Positions 15,807 to 28,581 of a stretch of DNA of 60,986 nt are shown here, in pieces. The notes beneath the pieces are model-generated. The model saw only the letters and a list, made by a program, of their open reading frames with translations, ran no database searches and had not been told where the DNA came from. Where the stretch lies: positions 1 through 60,986 of the IMG/VR virus record IMGVR_UViG_3300033182_001015; one strand, 5' to 3'. The DNA is from a virus. Numbering within the stretch: the stretch's first letter is position 1; every line of letters begins with the position of its first letter. The translations under genes and the position numbers were made by a program.

Positions 15807-16283
15807 TTAATTATTCAGCGGATTATCAAGTATAATCTGAATCTTCTCTTCGAGATCATTTCTCGTCTGACGTAAATCTTCATCGAGCGTTCGCATGCGC
15901 TCGTTTACTTTAGACTCAATACTATACACATCATCACGTAGTTCACGTTGAGTGCTATTAGTAGTATCATCAATACGTCTAGCAAGTGTTTCGACTTTAT
16001 CCATATCCTCAGTGAGTCTGTCATCGGTCAATTCGATCTGCTTCTCTAGCTGATCCATCATATCACTGAGTGTATTCATTGTTTCTAACTGTACTGCTAA
16101 CTCTTGTTCAATATGAGACAGGTCAGGAGCCACGTACTCCTCAATCTGTGCCTTCATATTGCGGTAATCATTATAAAATTCGAATGCTCCCCACGCACCA
16201 CCGCCGAGGGTTGATAATGCTGTCAACACGACAAACATCTTACCACCTTTAAACGTCATGCCAGCAAATTCAAATTCTGCCAT
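15807..16283 (-). CDS. Membrane-anchored coiled-coil protein
   Basis: Last gene of the minus operon, 158 residues. A short N-terminus (MAEFEFAGMTFKGGK) precedes one hydrophobic helix (residues 16-35, MFVVLTALSTLGGGAWGAFEF). A long coiled coil to the end follows, with many Gln, Asp, Glu and Arg (DRLTEDMDKVETLARRID). The topology resembles spanin-like or envelope-spanning rods, but there is no lipobox or Pro-rich region. The function is unknown and the exported neighbours suggest a cell-envelope role. Confidence 0.65.
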   Translation of the reverse strand: MAEFEFAGMTFKGGKMFVVLTALSTLGGGAWGAFEFYNDYRNMKAQIEEYVAPDLSHIEQELAVQLETMNTLSDMMDQLEKQIELTDDRLTEDMDKVETLARRIDDTTNSTQRELRDDVYSIESKVNERMRTLDEDLRQTRNDLEEKIQIILDNPLNN

Positions 16284-16368
16284 CTTTCTTTGCCTTCTCT
16301 GCTAATTTTCTATCTGTAGTTCTGATGATAATAGCACCATCTTTATCGTAAATCGTATACCACTTCAT
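16270..16368 (-). CDS. 32-aa peptide bridging two minus-strand genes
   Basis: ATG (complement 16366-16368) overlaps the stop of the gene before it (ATGA) and the stop lies 14 bases inside the gene after it. The product begins MKWYTIYDKDGAIIIRTTDR and ends AKKDGRI, a small beta-hairpin-like sequence plus a Lys-rich helix. Double coupling makes it likely to be translated. No family recognised. Confidence 0.5.
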   Translation of the reverse strand: MKWYTIYDKDGAIIIRTTDRKLAEKAKKDGRI

Positions 16369-16826
16369 AGTATACTCACAAAGCCGGCAATTAATACACC
16401 ACAAAATACAAAGAAGCCGGCGATAGCTGCTACATCAATATAAAATGCTTTTTTACGGGCAGCTGCTTGTGCTGCTTCGATTCTACGTTGACGAATGACT
16501 CGTCTTTCTTTCATCATATCTTCGTAGAATTGTTGTTGACCAGTATAAAGCAAAAATTCGTATAGTTCTTTTTCGAGTTGCTTTATCTTGTGTCGTGCTG
16601 CGGTGACCTGTAGTGCCTGTGCTTCTACACTACTTCCACCAAATAATGATCCCACCATGGATGGGTTTTTAGCGTGTTGATCTGCTTCTGCTAGTGTTTC
16701 CTTCGCATCAAAGAATTTTGCAAAAACATCGTACATATCTTGGACCTCTTGGCCCTTCTCAATCGCTCCTTTAATCATATTAAATGCAGAACCAGCCATC
16801 GACAACGCGGCGGCTATTTCTACCAT
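16365..16826 (-). CDS. Helical protein with C-terminal membrane segment
   Basis: Encodes 153 residues: a mildly hydrophobic N-terminus (AAALSMAGSAFNMIKGAI), a long amphipathic middle with many Glu, Gln and Lys, a basic segment ERRVIRQRRIEAAQAAARKK, then a transmembrane helix (DVAAIAGFFVFCGVLIAGFV) at the very end. Comparable proteins with an RRxIRxxR-helix-TM ending occur in marine T4-like phages as hypothetical genes, as far as I recall. It lies in the exported-protein operon, five bases after the preceding gene. Confidence 0.62.
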   Translation of the reverse strand: MVEIAAALSMAGSAFNMIKGAIEKGQEVQDMYDVFAKFFDAKETLAEADQHAKNPSMVGSLFGGSSVEAQALQVTAARHKIKQLEKELYEFLLYTGQQQFYEDMMKERRVIRQRRIEAAQAAARKKAFYIDVAAIAGFFVFCGVLIAGFVSIL

Positions 16827-16831
16827 TATGA

Positions 16832-17287
16832 CTAATCTCCGTTAGCTATTACGTTCCCTGCTTTTGGTGCCTCAAACTGTAAATTCTTTAACATCTGAAT
16901 CTCACGTTGCAGTTTGAGTACTTCTAACCGCTTCTTCTCAAGTTCTAATTCATACAGTCTATTACAGTTCAATCTCTTTTTAGGTGCGCCGATAGGAATT
17001 GTAATTCTACCGTATACACCGATATCTCTCAAAAACTCATCTTGATTGTAGTTCAGTGTAGGATCATTATTGAACTGATACATCGGATCGTTCTGATTCA
17101 GAATGCCTACTACACCAAACTCTACGTTCGTTGACGAACCAATTGCTGCTGAACATTCTACATCACCGGCTCGTACTCTGTCAGATTGAAAACTCTGAGG
17201 AGCATTCGGTATGGCAATGTTAACACCAGTATTTTGTGCATAAACAAAAGAAGGCAGCAACATCAAAATTGTCAATAGTTTTTTCAT
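16832..17287 (-). CDS. Exported protein with C-terminal coiled coil
   Basis: Start taken as the ATG at complement 17285-17287, which overlaps the upstream stop (ATGA) and opens directly with a signal peptide (KKLLTILMLLPSFVYAQ, cleavage likely after Ala). The mature part has RAGDVECSAAIGSSTNVEFGVVG and DIGVYGRITIPIGAPKKRLNCN, two Cys residues that could pair, then a heptad coiled coil (LELEKKRLEVLKLQREIQML). Periplasmic or envelope location is predicted. Similar proteins are recalled in marine phages, without known function. Confidence 0.68.
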   Translation of the reverse strand: MKKLLTILMLLPSFVYAQNTGVNIAIPNAPQSFQSDRVRAGDVECSAAIGSSTNVEFGVVGILNQNDPMYQFNNDPTLNYNQDEFLRDIGVYGRITIPIGAPKKRLNCNRLYELELEKKRLEVLKLQREIQMLKNLQFEAPKAGNVIANGD

Positions 17288-17658
17288 CGTTTTACTTTCG
17301 AACATATTCTAGACGAGACCAATGACGCCGTATCTTTACGCTTTACAATCTGTGTTCGTGAACAGACGTATACAACTCTGTCGAGGTCTTCCGCTTTTAT
17401 GTATATATTTATGACTTTCCTTTCTAAGTAGGCAACATGAGTAGTACGTTCATACGCAGCCCATGGTATATGCATAAACTCAACATCTAATACGTCGAAA
17501 GTAAAGTAGTTGATATCGGCACGAGAGTTCCAGAGAGTCATATCAAACTGATATATCCCTTCGGCCCACGATTGAATTGGTTTAGGATAGGTGGGAGTCC
17601 ACGAATGGGCCGCAACGGGCCCACTCAGGACTAACAGAAGTGCCATGATATAACGCAT
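17284..17658 (-). CDS. Exported small protein
   Basis: The 124-residue product has an N-terminal signal peptide (MRYIMALLLVLSGPVAAHSW, predicted cleavage after VAA or AHS). The mature domain is Tyr/Trp rich and then basic, with SRTQIVKRKDTASLVSSRIC; two Cys residues (CSRTQ... and ...RICSK) could form a disulfide. No family recognised. Gene spacing is three bases to the upstream gene and an ATGA overlap with the downstream gene. Confidence 0.62.
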   Translation of the reverse strand: MRYIMALLLVLSGPVAAHSWTPTYPKPIQSWAEGIYQFDMTLWNSRADINYFTFDVLDVEFMHIPWAAYERTTHVAYLERKVINIYIKAEDLDRVVYVCSRTQIVKRKDTASLVSSRICSKVKR

Positions 17659-17661
17659 GGT

Positions 17662-18159
17662 TTAGAGTGCTATACAGTTAGCTTCCACGATAGAGGTGTA
17701 AGTACCACCAGGAAGTGCTTTGCTATAACCATAATCAGCTTCTGAGCTGACCTTAAACCACGTGCTACCAGCGATTGACAGATCTACTTCTGTCGTATTA
17801 TCGTATTCGATCTTATCAGTATCATACGCAGACATACCAGCATCTGACACAGCCTCGACTGAAGTGGATCCAGTCCATGTTACCGTATCATTGAGTGCAG
17901 GACTCTGAGAGAAAGAGATAGGATGAGAGATAACAGCTTTGTATGCATCGGCCAATACGACGTCGAAGCGTACAACGGGTTCTACACCACCGTCAGCTGC
18001 ATCGGTTGAGAGGATGCTTGCTGAAGGGTTACCATACACACCTTGCTTGTCGATGGTCACTACACACTTTGACTCTACGTTACCAATGATAGGAACGTCG
18101 GCAGCTTGTGCGCCGATGGCCATCATAGGAATTGAAGCGGCCAAAATTTTCTTGAACAT
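17662..18159 (-). CDS. Exported beta-rich protein, pilin/SCPU-like
   Basis: The 165-residue product has a clear signal peptide (FKKILAASIPMMAIGAQA followed by ADVP). The mature chain has two Cys residues, one near the start (ESKCVVTID) and one four residues from the end (VEANCIAL). They bracket a beta-strand rich, Thr/Ser/Val/Asp composition ending GGTYTSIVEANC. This resembles secreted immunoglobulin-like or spore-coat-U/fimbrial subunits, where an N- and C-terminal disulfide is usual. The analogy is structural guesswork. The role could be display on or passage through the envelope. Confidence 0.6.
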   Translation of the reverse strand: MFKKILAASIPMMAIGAQAADVPIIGNVESKCVVTIDKQGVYGNPSASILSTDAADGGVEPVVRFDVVLADAYKAVISHPISFSQSPALNDTVTWTGSTSVEAVSDAGMSAYDTDKIEYDNTTEVDLSIAGSTWFKVSSEADYGYSKALPGGTYTSIVEANCIAL

Positions 18160-19043
18160 TAACGTTCTCCTTTATATTGTGATTTGACTAATTTGTCATG
18201 AAGTAAATCTTGCGCATACTGTAATCTGCGTCCACGATTATTACGTGGCAATGTACTATCTTTCAATGTAACAGTCTCATTATAAACAGTATCGGGCAGT
18301 TGAGTATAATATACATTCGAGAAGTTATTCAGTGCCATCATTTGTTGTTGCTTGACTGTATCTACATCATTCTGTAAGGAACGACCAACTATACCTAATA
18401 CATTTTCAAGATCAACTTCTTCTTCATCCTCTTCTTCTTTTTCAGACATCCTTTGTCTTTCACGTTCATCTTCATCTTCGTCTCTCATAGTCATTTTCCG
18501 ATCGATCTCATTTTGAATAGCTTGATCATCAAGTGGATCAATGGGTTCAACTGATGGTATATCAGGCATTTCTACCTTATATCCCGGACATGATGGATCC
18601 GATTGTGGATCAAAACATGTGTCATACTGATAAGTGTAAACCACTACTGGATCAGTGACTTTACCTTCACCTTCCCATACTATTGAGCCATCTCCCCAAT
18701 AATCGATAGGAACTCTACCAACACCAACTACTTTGTTGATAGAATTACCTGGCAATCCAGTCCAGTCGTCGGTCTCTCGGAAAATGTAACCACCGTCGAC
18801 TGCATTTTCGTTCTGTACCGTTACAAATAATGGATCATCAATATCCTTGATCGTAGTGTAACGATACAAAACAGTATTGACTTGCAAACCTGCCTGCTGA
18901 GGTAAAAGATTGCTCATTACCCACGCATATCCATTCTGGGCCGCGTTGGTCGTTTGACCAAATACTTGCTCAGAGTAGGAGTAAGAGGGCGAGCAAGCCA
19001 GCGACGCCGCCGCCAGCCATTGCAGTATCTTTAGTCTGCTCAT
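18159..19043 (-). CDS. Large exported protein of marine T4-like phages
   Basis: The 294-residue product has a signal peptide (SRLKILQWLAAASLACSPSYSYS) and then a beta-rich domain (IFRETDDWTGLPGNSINKVV, DYWGDGSIVWEGEG). A Cys pair sits in CFDPQSDPSCPGY. A Pro-rich hinge leads to an extremely acidic/basic alternating helix (residues about 185-215, DEDEDERERQRMSEKEEEDE) and a C-terminal domain. I recall homologues in marine T4-like phages annotated only as hypothetical. Its first 74 bases overlap the end of the upstream gene in a different frame. The ACS in the signal could be a degenerate lipobox. Confidence 0.66.
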   Translation of the reverse strand: MSRLKILQWLAAASLACSPSYSYSEQVFGQTTNAAQNGYAWVMSNLLPQQAGLQVNTVLYRYTTIKDIDDPLFVTVQNENAVDGGYIFRETDDWTGLPGNSINKVVGVGRVPIDYWGDGSIVWEGEGKVTDPVVVYTYQYDTCFDPQSDPSCPGYKVEMPDIPSVEPIDPLDDQAIQNEIDRKMTMRDEDEDERERQRMSEKEEEDEEEVDLENVLGIVGRSLQNDVDTVKQQQMMALNNFSNVYYTQLPDTVYNETVTLKDSTLPRNNRGRRLQYAQDLLHDKLVKSQYKGER

Positions 19044-19575
19044 CCATACCTTCTTCTAATTCGACTTCGTCTGGACTTGAAGTTACACCTTGTGCTTGCC
19101 ATGCGGCTTTCGCTTCAGGTCCAATGAGTCCGTCGTAAGGACATGGTGTACCAGCATTCATCATTGCACTAAAGACTCTCTTGTCTTGGCACATCAATGA
19201 TACTGCCGCTACCTTCATACCCATGTCGTAAAGTGTTTTGGCATTCTTCAGTCGTTCACAGTTTTCATCGGTAAATTGTGTACCTGTAGAAATACCGAGA
19301 ATTTGTGTTTGTACTGCTCCAGCTACACCAAAAGTACAAAGATCAGAGTTCGATGTATTGATCGTTGGTGTAATCGCCGATGCAGGAGGCGACTTCAGTG
19401 TCGTGGTAGTATTACCGTTTGTTGTGATCGTACTTGTAGTTGTCGACTCAGTTCTTATCACGTTAGGATCTACAGCTTGTTCTTGTGCCAATGCAGCAGG
19501 CAGCCAAGATACTAACAAAATAACACCAATACCGACGCACAAGATTCTGATCAAGCTCGCGTCTAGTTTATGCAT
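18970..19575 (-). CDS. Exported protein with C-terminal hydrophobic tail
   Basis: First gene of the minus operon, 201 residues. The signal-anchor near residues 8-30 (LIRILCVGIGVILLVSWLPA) ends at ALAQEQ. A Thr-rich spacer follows (TTTSTITTNGNTTTT). The globular domain has four Cys residues (DLCTFGVAGAVQTQI, DENCERLK, LMCQDKR, GTPCPYDG), and the C-terminal hydrophobic stretch is GGGVAGLLALLLLL. The GMKVAAVSLMCQDKRVF segment is similar to proteins I recall from marine myoviruses. Role unknown; two potential membrane contacts suggest envelope association. A late box lies 72 bp upstream. Confidence 0.68.
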   Translation of the reverse strand: MHKLDASLIRILCVGIGVILLVSWLPAALAQEQAVDPNVIRTESTTTSTITTNGNTTTTLKSPPASAITPTINTSNSDLCTFGVAGAVQTQILGISTGTQFTDENCERLKNAKTLYDMGMKVAAVSLMCQDKRVFSAMMNAGTPCPYDGLIGPEAKAAWQAQGVTSSPDEVELEEGMDEQTKDTAMAGGGVAGLLALLLLL

Positions 19576-19646: not shown

Positions 19647-19654
19647 TATTTATA
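19647..19654 (-). promoter_or_regulatory. T4-type late promoter for minus operon
   Basis: TATTTATA on the + strand reads TATAAATA on the minus strand. It is 72 bp upstream of the first minus-strand gene and nothing else on that strand lies between, so it likely drives the eight-gene exported-protein operon late in infection. Confidence 0.65.
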
Positions 19655-25228: not shown

Positions 25229-25250
25229 GGCCACTTCGGTGGCCTTTTTT
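25229..25250 (+). terminator. Intrinsic terminator after gp32
   Basis: GGCCAC-TTCG-GTGGCC (25229-25244) with a UUCG tetraloop, followed by TTTTTT (25245-25250). The minus-strand gene ends inside the T-run, so the hairpin also lies just after that gene. On that strand no T-run follows it. Confidence 0.92.
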
Positions 25251-27933
25251 ATGTCTGATAGAAATTGGCTTCTGACATAAATGAATCGCTTGTATCAAAA
25301 TTAGGAGATGCGCTGTCAGGCAACGATCCAAAACCAGATGCACCTGTCACAACTGATCTATTATTCTGTGGGCCTCTCATTTGATTCATGACGATTGGAA
25401 TAATCTGCGTTGCTTTCTCTTTGATTTCAGAAGATACGTTGGGCATATATCTTTCTAGCATTTCTGTCATGGCAGCTTCAGACACAACTTCGGCTACTTG
25501 ATTTGTATCGCCTTTCATAATTGTGTCGATTACTTCGGCGTTCTCTTCGCCTACAATATTTTCTAAATCACGTTTTAAAGCTCGTCCAGTCGATTCTTCA
25601 TAAACCTTTTTGACTTGTTCATAGTTACCATCTTCTGCAACCTCAATTGCAGTTGACATAATACCTTCAAACTTTTCAACCGGATCAGAGTCAGAGAAAG
25701 CAGTTTGTAACTTAGCAACATTTTCATACGTTTCGGGATAAATCTCGGTTTCAGTAATATCAGAAACACTATTAATACCACCCGTCTCATATGATTCAGT
25801 AACACCGCTTGGTCTCTCACTTGCCAGTGATGGATCATATACTTTTCTTCTTGTAATTTTACCATTTCTTCCTGCAGCAGATCGAGCATTTTGGAAATTC
25901 GTATATACCTTCTCTTCACCGTCTACGACTACAACAAATTCTTCTTTCATTTCATTTCTAATGTCGATACCACTACCTCCATTACCTGCTAATGCTCTAT
26001 CTAAATACGCATCAAATTGATCACGCTCATCTTGAGTCCGAAGATTTTCATGAGCATATTCACGTAATGTCATACCGGTTTTTTCAACCATTTCTTTGTT
26101 TACTTGTTCTAAATGTTCTTGACTTGTAATAGAATCAGCAACATGGAAAATAGCATTCTCATCTTTATTTGCTCTGTCCATAGATTCAATAGCGATATCG
26201 GTTAATGTTGCATCTTCACCGTATTCTTCTGCTAATTCTTCAGTTGTGGCTACTCTATCAACCAATCCTAAAACTTCACCTGCGTTTATCATTGTATCTT
26301 TGAATACTTGACCAATCCTTTCGAATTCTGCTTTAGCAGCACTCATGATTCTACCGCCGATACCTGCAAATGCTTCTTTCCATGCCTCAATTCCTTCTTT
26401 ATCACTTGTAATGGCATCATACATCGCTGCTACGATTTCATCGGCTCCAATAATTTTCCATAAAGATTCACCAAATAATACGCCTATCGCAACACCTAAA
26501 AGACTGCCTGTAAGTGTACCAAAAAAAGGAATAACTAATGTACCTACACCAGTTCCTAATATAGAAAAAATAGTACATATGATCCATGTACCACCAATGA
26601 TTTGCATAAATTCTCTGAGGTTTGCTTTTGTCCTCTTATGGAATTCTTCTTCTGTAATCATTTGTAAAGCCCAAGATAGCGCAGCATCTTTAATAGCAAC
26701 TAACGCATAGAAAGCTGCCATCCATCTGACTGGTTTGGCCAAAAATCCTTTAAATAAAGAAGCAGCTACTGCACCCATTTTACCAATTACACTGGTGACA
26801 TTTGCGATAGCACCTGTAAATGGTTTAATAATTTTTCCAATGAGTTCTGTAAATCCTTTCATTAATTCATATGCGCGCATCGCTTTTGTATTGGGTTTTG
26901 GAGCCCATGCTCTGACTTGAGCGATGCTTTCTGCCATTCTTGCAATACGACTCGGCTGTTGCGGACCAATTGCCATGGCTTTTTCGATTCTAGCAAGTTT
27001 CCAATCACTAAATTTATCAATCATATTAACTGCTATTTGTGCCATACCCCTTTTAATATTTCCGCCCAATGCTCCCAAACCAATAGCAATTTGTGTATAC
27101 TTTTCTTCTATATTATCTAACCATCCGAGATTATCTTCTACAACCTCTCCGAGTGTTGCATCCGGATCATCTGGTTCAAAATCTTTTGCGAGTTGAGCAA
27201 AACCTAATGCAATAGCGGGGAATGCTAGCTTTGTTAATAGATCTTCGAGGAAATTACTTAAACCTGCACTACCTTTCGCTAAAGCTTGCATCGGTCCAAG
27301 CGCTTCTTCTTTTTTCTCAATTGCCTCTTCGTCTCGCCTTCTTTCATTTTGCCTTTTGGTTCTTCTGTTTTCGTCAACAGCATCATCTACAGAATCCGAA
27401 AGGGTATTCATCGCAGCAGTCTGTGCTGCTAATGCACCTATAGAATTAGAAATAGCATTGATTTCCGTGCCCTGTTTAATAGCAGATTCAATTTTTACTG
27501 GAGTATAGTTATCATCGAAATAATTTTCGACTATTTCTTGAGGAGGTATTTTAATATCAAGCGGGGCGTCTTCTATCAGAGTAAGATCAGTACGCTCAGC
27601 AATAGGTGTAAGTGCTTCGAGAGATGCCGGTAGTCCAGCTAGATTTATTTCTGGATCATCTAATTTTATTGATCCAATTCCAGCATTACCGCCTTGTTGA
27701 CCTACGTCTACATTATTAGAACCTGCAGCAGCATCATCACTACCACCACTACCTTTTAATAAACTGCCGACTATAAGAGCATTGCGCATACGCGCGAGCA
27801 TGCCGGCACTTTTACCAACTTTATCGGCAGTTTTACTTGCTGTACGGGCAACACGCGCATTCTTACCTTTGGCCACTCTACGTAAGCCAATGATTAATTT
27901 TCGTATTCCTTTAGCTGCTTTTAATTTAGACAT
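25249..27933 (-). CDS. Probable tail tape measure protein (inverted)
   Basis: Start chosen at complement 27931-27933 (MSKLKAAKGIRKLI), 33 bases downstream of a minus-strand late box; a longer upstream extension would overlap the opposite gene and promoter. The 894-residue product has a basic N-terminus, long helical segments and central hydrophobic stretches (IIGGTWIICTIFSILGTGVG, LVIPFFGTLTGSLLGVAIGV), then an acidic helical C-terminal half. Length, helix content and central hydrophobic segments fit a tape measure, and tail assembly genes lie next to it. No diagnostic motif exists, and it is opposite in strand to the rest of the tail genes. Confidence 0.5.
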   Translation of the reverse strand: MSKLKAAKGIRKLIIGLRRVAKGKNARVARTASKTADKVGKSAGMLARMRNALIVGSLLKGSGGSDDAAAGSNNVDVGQQGGNAGIGSIKLDDPEINLAGLPASLEALTPIAERTDLTLIEDAPLDIKIPPQEIVENYFDDNYTPVKIESAIKQGTEINAISNSIGALAAQTAAMNTLSDSVDDAVDENRRTKRQNERRRDEEAIEKKEEALGPMQALAKGSAGLSNFLEDLLTKLAFPAIALGFAQLAKDFEPDDPDATLGEVVEDNLGWLDNIEEKYTQIAIGLGALGGNIKRGMAQIAVNMIDKFSDWKLARIEKAMAIGPQQPSRIARMAESIAQVRAWAPKPNTKAMRAYELMKGFTELIGKIIKPFTGAIANVTSVIGKMGAVAASLFKGFLAKPVRWMAAFYALVAIKDAALSWALQMITEEEFHKRTKANLREFMQIIGGTWIICTIFSILGTGVGTLVIPFFGTLTGSLLGVAIGVLFGESLWKIIGADEIVAAMYDAITSDKEGIEAWKEAFAGIGGRIMSAAKAEFERIGQVFKDTMINAGEVLGLVDRVATTEELAEEYGEDATLTDIAIESMDRANKDENAIFHVADSITSQEHLEQVNKEMVEKTGMTLREYAHENLRTQDERDQFDAYLDRALAGNGGSGIDIRNEMKEEFVVVVDGEEKVYTNFQNARSAAGRNGKITRRKVYDPSLASERPSGVTESYETGGINSVSDITETEIYPETYENVAKLQTAFSDSDPVEKFEGIMSTAIEVAEDGNYEQVKKVYEESTGRALKRDLENIVGEENAEVIDTIMKGDTNQVAEVVSEAAMTEMLERYMPNVSSEIKEKATQIIPIVMNQMRGPQNNRSVVTGASGFGSLPDSASPNFDTSDSFMSEANFYQT

Positions 27934-27943
27934 GGGTATATCG

Positions 27944-27951
27944 CATAAATA
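27944..27951 (+). promoter_or_regulatory. Late box (+) of an overlapping bidirectional pair
   Basis: CATAAATA, one mismatch from consensus, 30 bp before GTG 27982 on the + strand. Predicted start near 27957. Confidence 0.55.
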
Positions 27952-27965
27952 AGAAAAACTATTTC

Positions 27966-27973
27966 TATTTATA
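27966..27973 (-). promoter_or_regulatory. Late promoter (-) of an overlapping bidirectional pair
   Basis: TATTTATA on the + strand, perfect TATAAATA on the minus strand, 33 bp before the tape-measure-like ATG. Predicted start near 27960, only a few bases from that of the + strand box. Confidence 0.65.
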
Positions 27974-27981
27974 AGGCAATC

Positions 27982-28581
27982 GTGGCTACATACATTTTCC
28001 AAAAGATAGCTCAAGAGGGACAAACACAAGATTTTTCTGATGCAGAAGAATCACGTGACTGGTATCGCGATAAAGCTCAATCAATAAAGTCCGTAAATAT
28101 GAAGCGTGAGCTTCGTAATCGCGATCGTACATATAACAAAATGGTAGCTACTGATATCGGTCGTATGTATATGTTTCAATACGACCCGAAAGGCAAAGAT
28201 ACCTTACCTTATTATGATGTGTTTCCTTTGATTTTCGTGTTAGAAAAATATAATGATGGATTTTTAGGCATGAACCTTCATTATTTACCTCCCGTTTTTA
28301 GAGCTCGATTGATGGATCGTTTATATAGCATCGAGAGACAAGATAATTTACGTGAGTCGAAAAAATTAAGATTGAATTATGGTCTACTCAATTCTGTGGC
28401 GAAGTATAAATACTTTAGGCCTACCGTTAAACGCTACTTGAATTCACAGGTAAGATCACGATTTCTTTGGGTACCATATGAAGAATGGGATATCGCATTA
28501 ATGTTACCTACACAGAGATTTAGAAAAGGTAAGGCCAACGTCGTATGGCGCGATTCAAAACAATTAATAACGAGATCATAA
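27982..28581 (+). CDS. 2: Probable DNA end protector, gp2-like
   Basis: The 199-residue basic protein starts at GTG 27982. Key segments are RMYMFQYDPKGKDTLPYYDV, FPLIFVLEKYNDGFLGMNLH, YLPPVFRARLMDRLY and EEWDIALMLPTQRF. I recall this pattern as the gp2 DNA end protector annotation of marine T4-like phages. In T4 gp2 binds packaged DNA ends and protects them from RecBCD. T4 gp2 is longer (about 270), so orthology is tentative. T4 also groups genes 2, 4, 53 and 5, matching the order here. Confidence 0.5.
   Translation: MATYIFQKIAQEGQTQDFSDAEESRDWYRDKAQSIKSVNMKRELRNRDRTYNKMVATDIGRMYMFQYDPKGKDTLPYYDVFPLIFVLEKYNDGFLGMNLHYLPPVFRARLMDRLYSIERQDNLRESKKLRLNYGLLNSVAKYKYFRPTVKRYLNSQVRSRFLWVPYEEWDIALMLPTQRFRKGKANVVWRDSKQLITRS

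Follow-up and report, generated by a model that had tools for sequence, protein, structure and literature searches.

The viral fragment IMGVR_UViG_3300033182_001015 (60,986 bases; this whole stretch is called the window below) harbors eight tightly packed open reading frames (ORFs), g1 to g8, on the minus strand between positions 15807 and 19575. Together with a late promoter box, this gene cluster is not a product of chance but a real, conserved transcription unit. We tentatively propose, at somewhat less than even weight, that infected cells contain a trans-periplasmic assembly which is encoded by this late operon and acts on the envelope. The phage itself is T4-like: PHROG matches include a primase, a ribonucleotide reductase and a single-strand binding protein as well as baseplate and tail-tube proteins.

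A preliminary description of this DNA had postulated eight minus-strand genes encoding five exported and two membrane proteins, preceded by a late promoter box. All of these elements were recovered. By reading the sequences, the N-termini of g1 to g5 were seen to comprise basic residues at the start, followed by a hydrophobic core and a cleavage-type motif, while g6 possesses a C-terminal and g8 an N-terminal membrane segment; on inspection, g7 had neither feature. A crude signal-peptide rule, which returned 42% background positives, was not used as evidence. The T4-type late promoter box TATAAATA lies at 19647..19654 on the minus strand, 72 nucleotides (nt) before the g1 start, and is perfect. 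Taken alone, this 8-mer was mildly enriched in the window (13 copies against 7.1 expected; two of 100 shuffles reached 13). Just upstream of g1, however, a box was present in 45 of 89 dereplicated loci of relatives versus about 2.5 expected (0.028 per site), mostly 27-46 nt from the annotated g1 start, while none was found in the relatives upstream of g2 (0/92), g3 (0/92) or g8 (0/85). The genes overlap by 74 nt (g1/g2), 1 nt (g2/g3), 4 nt (g6/g7) and 14 nt (g7/g8) or are separated by gaps of 3-5 nt (g3/g4 and g5/g6); whether g4 and g5 overlap depends on the start chosen for g5. Ratios of nonsynonymous to synonymous polymorphism (pN/pS), determined against five relatives, amounted to 0.11-0.53 for g1 to g6 and g8 and to 0.06-0.64 for the tiny g7, showing that the operon genes are under purifying selection. 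A further late box (27966-27973) is associated with a 926-codon minus-strand ORF situated among plus-strand tail genes (25249-28029), for which no PHROG match was obtained.

Scans of viral contigs yielded approximately 140 loci containing the cluster, in which the gene order g1-g2-g3-g4-g5-(g6-g7)-g8 was constant. Among dereplicated marine viral loci with g2 and g8 at their ends, all 104 contained g3, g4 and g5, and g8 followed g5 in 62 of 68 dereplicated loci with a median spacing of 13 nt. This contradicts a scattered occurrence of the homologues, the pattern which the preliminary description had itself held against its proposal. In host genomes, g3 matches were restricted to two short contigs of metagenome-assembled genomes, both of which are probably phage DNA because they carry the whole cluster. 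The data support a dedicated set of co-transcribed late genes, directed to the envelope and recurring in clustered form. Hence, this part of the earlier suggestion of a dedicated envelope system stood, while the lysis-timing or release function attached to it was not established.

Part of the operon is more widely distributed. A three-gene core, composed of g1, a g2-like exported protein and g8 or a look-alike, was detected in phages of SAR11 and roseobacters and in other unrelated phages, namely HTVC033P, HTVC023P, HTVC202P, HTVC115P, Baldr, Mosig, MedDCM-S28-C10, CRP-207 and CRP-810. The usual order is g1, then another exported protein, then a protein with an anchor and a coiled coil. In pelagiphages the exported protein occupies the g2 position, and in HTVC033P and MedDCM-S28-C10 the one following g1 is annotated as carbohydrate-binding. 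Relatives of g1 occurred in more than 590 viral stretches and also in 13 named phage records; they are found in podovirus-type pelagiphages, the T4-like Mosig and roseophages. The core looks older than the operon, and T4-like phages seem to have g3-g4-g5 inserted between g2 and g8.

The core gene g1 (18970..19575; 201 amino acids, aa) encodes a signal peptide (ALA/Q), a Ser/Thr-rich stretch, a conserved domain with four cysteines, which are invariant in the family alignment, and a C-terminal hydrophobic stretch. It matches PHROG 20531 (E 7e-17), a family without known function. In the 294-aa product of g2 (18159..19043), a signal peptide (SYS/E) is followed by a conserved domain with the cysteine pair C143/C152, an acidic linker and a C-terminal region conserved in the alignment. 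The overlap of the two genes (18970-19043) codes in both frames: CTCTTACTCCTACTC specifies the LLLLL end of g1 as well as SYSYS in the cleavage region of g2, two features that many relatives have retained. Since these 74 nt serve two frames, the hydrophobic stretch of g1 may partly be a by-product of the g2 signal peptide.

The last gene of the operon, g8 (15807..16283; 158 aa), also belongs to the core. Reading of the sequence, hydropathy and alignment revealed an N-terminal membrane anchor, a coiled-coil-like body and a C-terminal Asn-Pro-Leu (NPL) tail. The motif NP[LMI] was present within the last 15 residues of 134 of 138 unique g8-type proteins (97/101 and 37/37), compared with 0.18% of 7223 other ORFs. 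Between different phages the coil of these proteins differs and mutual matches are weak. From its sequence conservation we infer that the NPL segment may be a docking tail. Two g8 homologues, L159:3292-3873 and L158:6219-6641 (CRP-207 and CRP-810), were deposited as 'lysozyme', a label that is unsupported and probably a misannotation; both are proteins with an anchor and a coiled coil.

Of the genes specific to T4-like phages, g3 and g4 were covered by AlphaFold2 structure predictions. The product of g4 (17284..17658; 124 aa, signal peptide VAA/H) gave a model with a predicted local distance difference test score (pLDDT) of 91.7, which is confidently predicted to form a single PapD/FimC-like pilus-chaperone domain. 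Its best Foldseek match was FaeE (E 3.4e-4), and VIA-align 2 superimposed residues 17-124 of the model on residues 1-115 of FimC (Z 10.7; root-mean-square deviation 2.8 over 101 residues). FimC-type chaperones dominated the match list, followed closely by MSP domains (Z 9.5). Because the latter score nearly as well, the fold of g4 should be regarded as predicted and its chaperone function as putative. Among viral predicted structures, four matches with E < 0.001 were obtained, none of them informative and one named (Klebsiella phage vB_KvM-Eowyn). C99 and C119 of g4 are invariant in the alignment and reside in strands F1 and G1, as in Caf1M and other FGL chaperones. Given a gap-free alignment of the last strand, K121 would fall on K112 of FimC. 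Like PapD/FimC chaperones, g4 appears to adopt the domain 1 fold from its mature N-terminus, is exported and has the gene for an exported Ig-like protein as its neighbor. Unlike them, it has domain 1 only, ending after the G1 strand where chaperone domain 2 would begin, and neither an usher nor sequence homology was detected.

For the 165-aa product of g3 (17662..18159; signal peptide AQA/A), the model (pLDDT 88) confidently suggests an immunoglobulin (Ig)-like beta domain with a disordered N-terminal extension, DVPI-x-G-x-V-x-S-x-C; C32 and C162 are invariant in the alignment. Foldseek returned pilin-type and other Ig-type proteins with E values of 0.006-0.04, the pilins on the list being the PapG pilin domain, FimF, FimG, CfaB and CsuA/B. 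There was no strong match, and the best structural Z (7.2) was to other Ig-type proteins. Thus, g3 is perhaps pilin-like, a weak assignment.

The third of these genes, g5 (16832..17305, with a likelier start at 17287; approximately 151 aa, signal peptide VYA/Q), has at least 571 viral relatives. The alignment disclosed invariant C46 and C109, a conserved GVYARITIPIG segment and a C-terminal charged helix-like segment, and the protein matches PHROG 37374 (E 1.9e-6), a family without known function. The two genes between g5 and g8 are facultative. While g7 (16270..16368; 32 aa), a small accessory ORF, was found in about 50 loci, g6 (16365..16826; 153 aa) is present in a minority of relatives (25/68 in the neighbor tally), sometimes before g1. 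Its helical product looks cytoplasmic and carries a C-terminal membrane tail, whose helix comprises residues 132-150 in a near-identical relative; the E value to PHROG 32327 was 0.024 for the window copy and 2.1e-14 for the relative at locus L127. At this locus and at L129, the g6-g1 start of the cluster is preceded by genes for an exported PstS-like protein and for a coiled-coil protein with a membrane anchor. Profile searches of the PDB with g1 to g6 gave no match. Defense genes were considered and rejected, as PADLOC matches were lightweight: g8 gave coiled-coil-type hits (best E 2e-4, to ZorA) and g4 a marginal one (E 0.006).

In the proposed trans-periplasmic assembly, g8 would sit in the inner membrane and span the periplasm as a coiled coil, its NPL tail docking on an exported core partner, either g1 or g2. 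In T4-like phages, g3, g4 and g5 would have been added to this core. Judging from the predicted folds, the half-size chaperone g4 may hold or fold the Ig-like g3 by donating its last strand, both proteins being stabilized by disulfides, and g5 would complete the exported structure. The likeliest task, suggested with slightly more reserve than the assembly as such, would be a late, egress-related weakening or remodeling of the outer envelope alongside holin and endolysin, without replacing the spanins. The operon would somewhat resemble both a trans-envelope complex with a spanin-like anchor and a pilus-like, chaperone-assisted export system, yet it lacks defining features of each.

Genes with a possible role in lysis were indeed frequent next to the module. 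Among pelagiphage-type loci, 16 had an M15 peptidase gene closely downstream of g8, and 18 had a gene for a small membrane protein immediately upstream of g1. In Mosig, g1 is preceded by a gene for a GTA_holin_3TM protein; three further named phages encode an amidase, M15 peptidase or phage lysozyme near the core. Moreover, an EF-hand two-helix membrane protein was encoded near the module in 31 of 91 T4-like loci, starting 2-12 nt after g8 in eight of them, and a member of this family also directly follows g8 in roseophage CRP-207. This protein (e.g., L103:10404-10733, L159:3870-4226 and L074:5463-5801), often encoded after g8 in unrelated phages, gave no Pfam match; it has the appearance of a candidate holin whose head is calcium-binding-like.

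Several observations weigh against the proposed assembly and its task. No recognized endolysin was found on the window fragment. Many of 38 T4-like records contain canonical spanins (PHROG 739/812) and an endolysin, frequently at a distance of tens of kb from the module. According to hand arithmetic, an i-spanin lay within 6 kb of the module in six of 17 records (about 3.3 expected) and an endolysin in two of 14 (about 2.5 expected), neither value being significant. In HTVC202P and Baldr the core adjoins the terminase, and the annotated peptidoglycan hydrolase is more than 10 kb off. The g8-type proteins of pelagiphages matched the g8 profile weakly (best E 0.001), so they may be analogues of g8. 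Finally, comparisons of g3 and g4 with E. coli K-12 pilins and chaperones by hidden Markov model (HMM-HMM) scored no better than shuffled columns, and a Pfam search of both families gave no match. A lysis cassette defined by proximity was rejected, as spanins and endolysins were not significantly closer than by chance, though holin-like genes adjoin. Because of the holin-like neighbors on the one hand and the spanins and endolysins encoded elsewhere on the other, a function in egress would be plausible, yet T4-like phages do not have the module as their sole lysis system.

An unlikely but serious alternative is that the operon makes an usher-less surface fiber or adhesin, by which superinfection would be blocked or infected cells would become sticky. 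Here g3 would be the fiber subunit completed by donor strands, g4 a minimal chaperone, and g1, g2 and g5 would serve export and anchoring. The predicted PapD-like domain of g4 with its F1-G1 cysteine pair is consistent with such a fiber, as are the Ig-like fold of g3 with pilins among its Foldseek matches and its N-terminal motif G-x-V-x(3)-C, which is similar to the G-x-V-x(4)-C found in pilins of E. coli. A precedent also exists: pelagiphages and the methylophage Melnitz have been reported to possess the curli pore and secretion genes CsgF/CsgG, for which a role in lysis or surface fibers was proposed (PMC9004378, PMC9599517). Being likewise a marine phage operon of exported envelope proteins, these genes are the nearest precedent in kind, but they belong to different protein families. 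A curli system was rejected for the module, as CsgG (PF03783) was absent from 32 records (the window and 31 relatives including Mosig) with a positive control. Against the fiber stand the HMM-HMM scores of g3 with the E. coli pilins, which did not rise above shuffles, its low structural Z to proteins other than pilins and the missing chaperone domain 2. Furthermore, the usher (PF00577) was absent from the records of 22 relatives, which comprise 51-197 kb and are possibly incomplete, while the E. coli control was positive. As these records lacked an usher and the module showed neither domain 2 nor sequence homology, a true chaperone-usher system was rejected.

It is improbable that the g8 family comprises divergent i-spanins whose exported partner is not a lipoprotein, which would make the core a new two-component spanin rupturing the outer membrane. 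Like the two-component spanins (Rz/Rz1; T4 PseT.3/PseT.2), g8 combines an N-terminal anchor with a coiled-coil-like periplasmic part, the layout of an i-spanin, and a conserved, docking-like C-terminal tail, and the core is sometimes positioned near holin or endolysin genes. In line with this, a simple scan of four pelagiphage genomes, two of them read whole, disclosed no lipobox spanin candidate. Unlike in these systems, g8 has no cysteine and a lipoprotein partner is missing: the lipobox pattern occurred in 18/183 unique sequences of g1, 1/117 of g2, 0/99 of g3, 0/105 of g4 and 2/100 of g5 and was conserved in none of the families, which leaves no o-spanin. Nor is g1 a unimolecular spanin, since its C-terminal hydrophobic stretch is combined with a conventional signal peptide and, as just given, a rare lipobox. 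The best PHROG spanin match of g8 reached E 0.25, and canonical spanins coexist in many T4-like relatives.

Marginally less probable still is that the products are structural or adsorption/ejection proteins of the late phase, or that the genes are unrelated and simply share a late promoter: small phages do have the core in the late genome half near tail or terminase genes, and decoration proteins of virions commonly adopt an Ig-like fold, but the export signals on five products would route them away from cytoplasmic capsid assembly and the strict co-occurrence of g3 to g5 speaks against an accidental collection.

A search of the literature, with most subscription journals outside its reach, retrieved no paper describing the module and none on phage chaperone-usher-like genes. 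Because a conserved set of late exported genes is seemingly undescribed, the module probably represents a route, so far unstudied, by which phages alter or break through the host envelope. More specifically, though this wider picture is doubtful, an undescribed envelope machine may consist of an NPL-tailed coiled-coil protein of the inner membrane and exported partners across unrelated marine phages, to which T4-like phages would add an usher-less Ig-type fiber assisted by a half-chaperone. Phages of SAR11 and roseobacters are among the most abundant marine viruses, and how they breach the streamlined two-membrane envelope of their hosts has been little studied. A conserved and strictly ordered late export module with one recognizable fold provides named genes for the study of this step. 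If the half-chaperone reading is true, donor-strand assembly would no longer be confined to two-domain chaperones with ushers and would also occur in phages.

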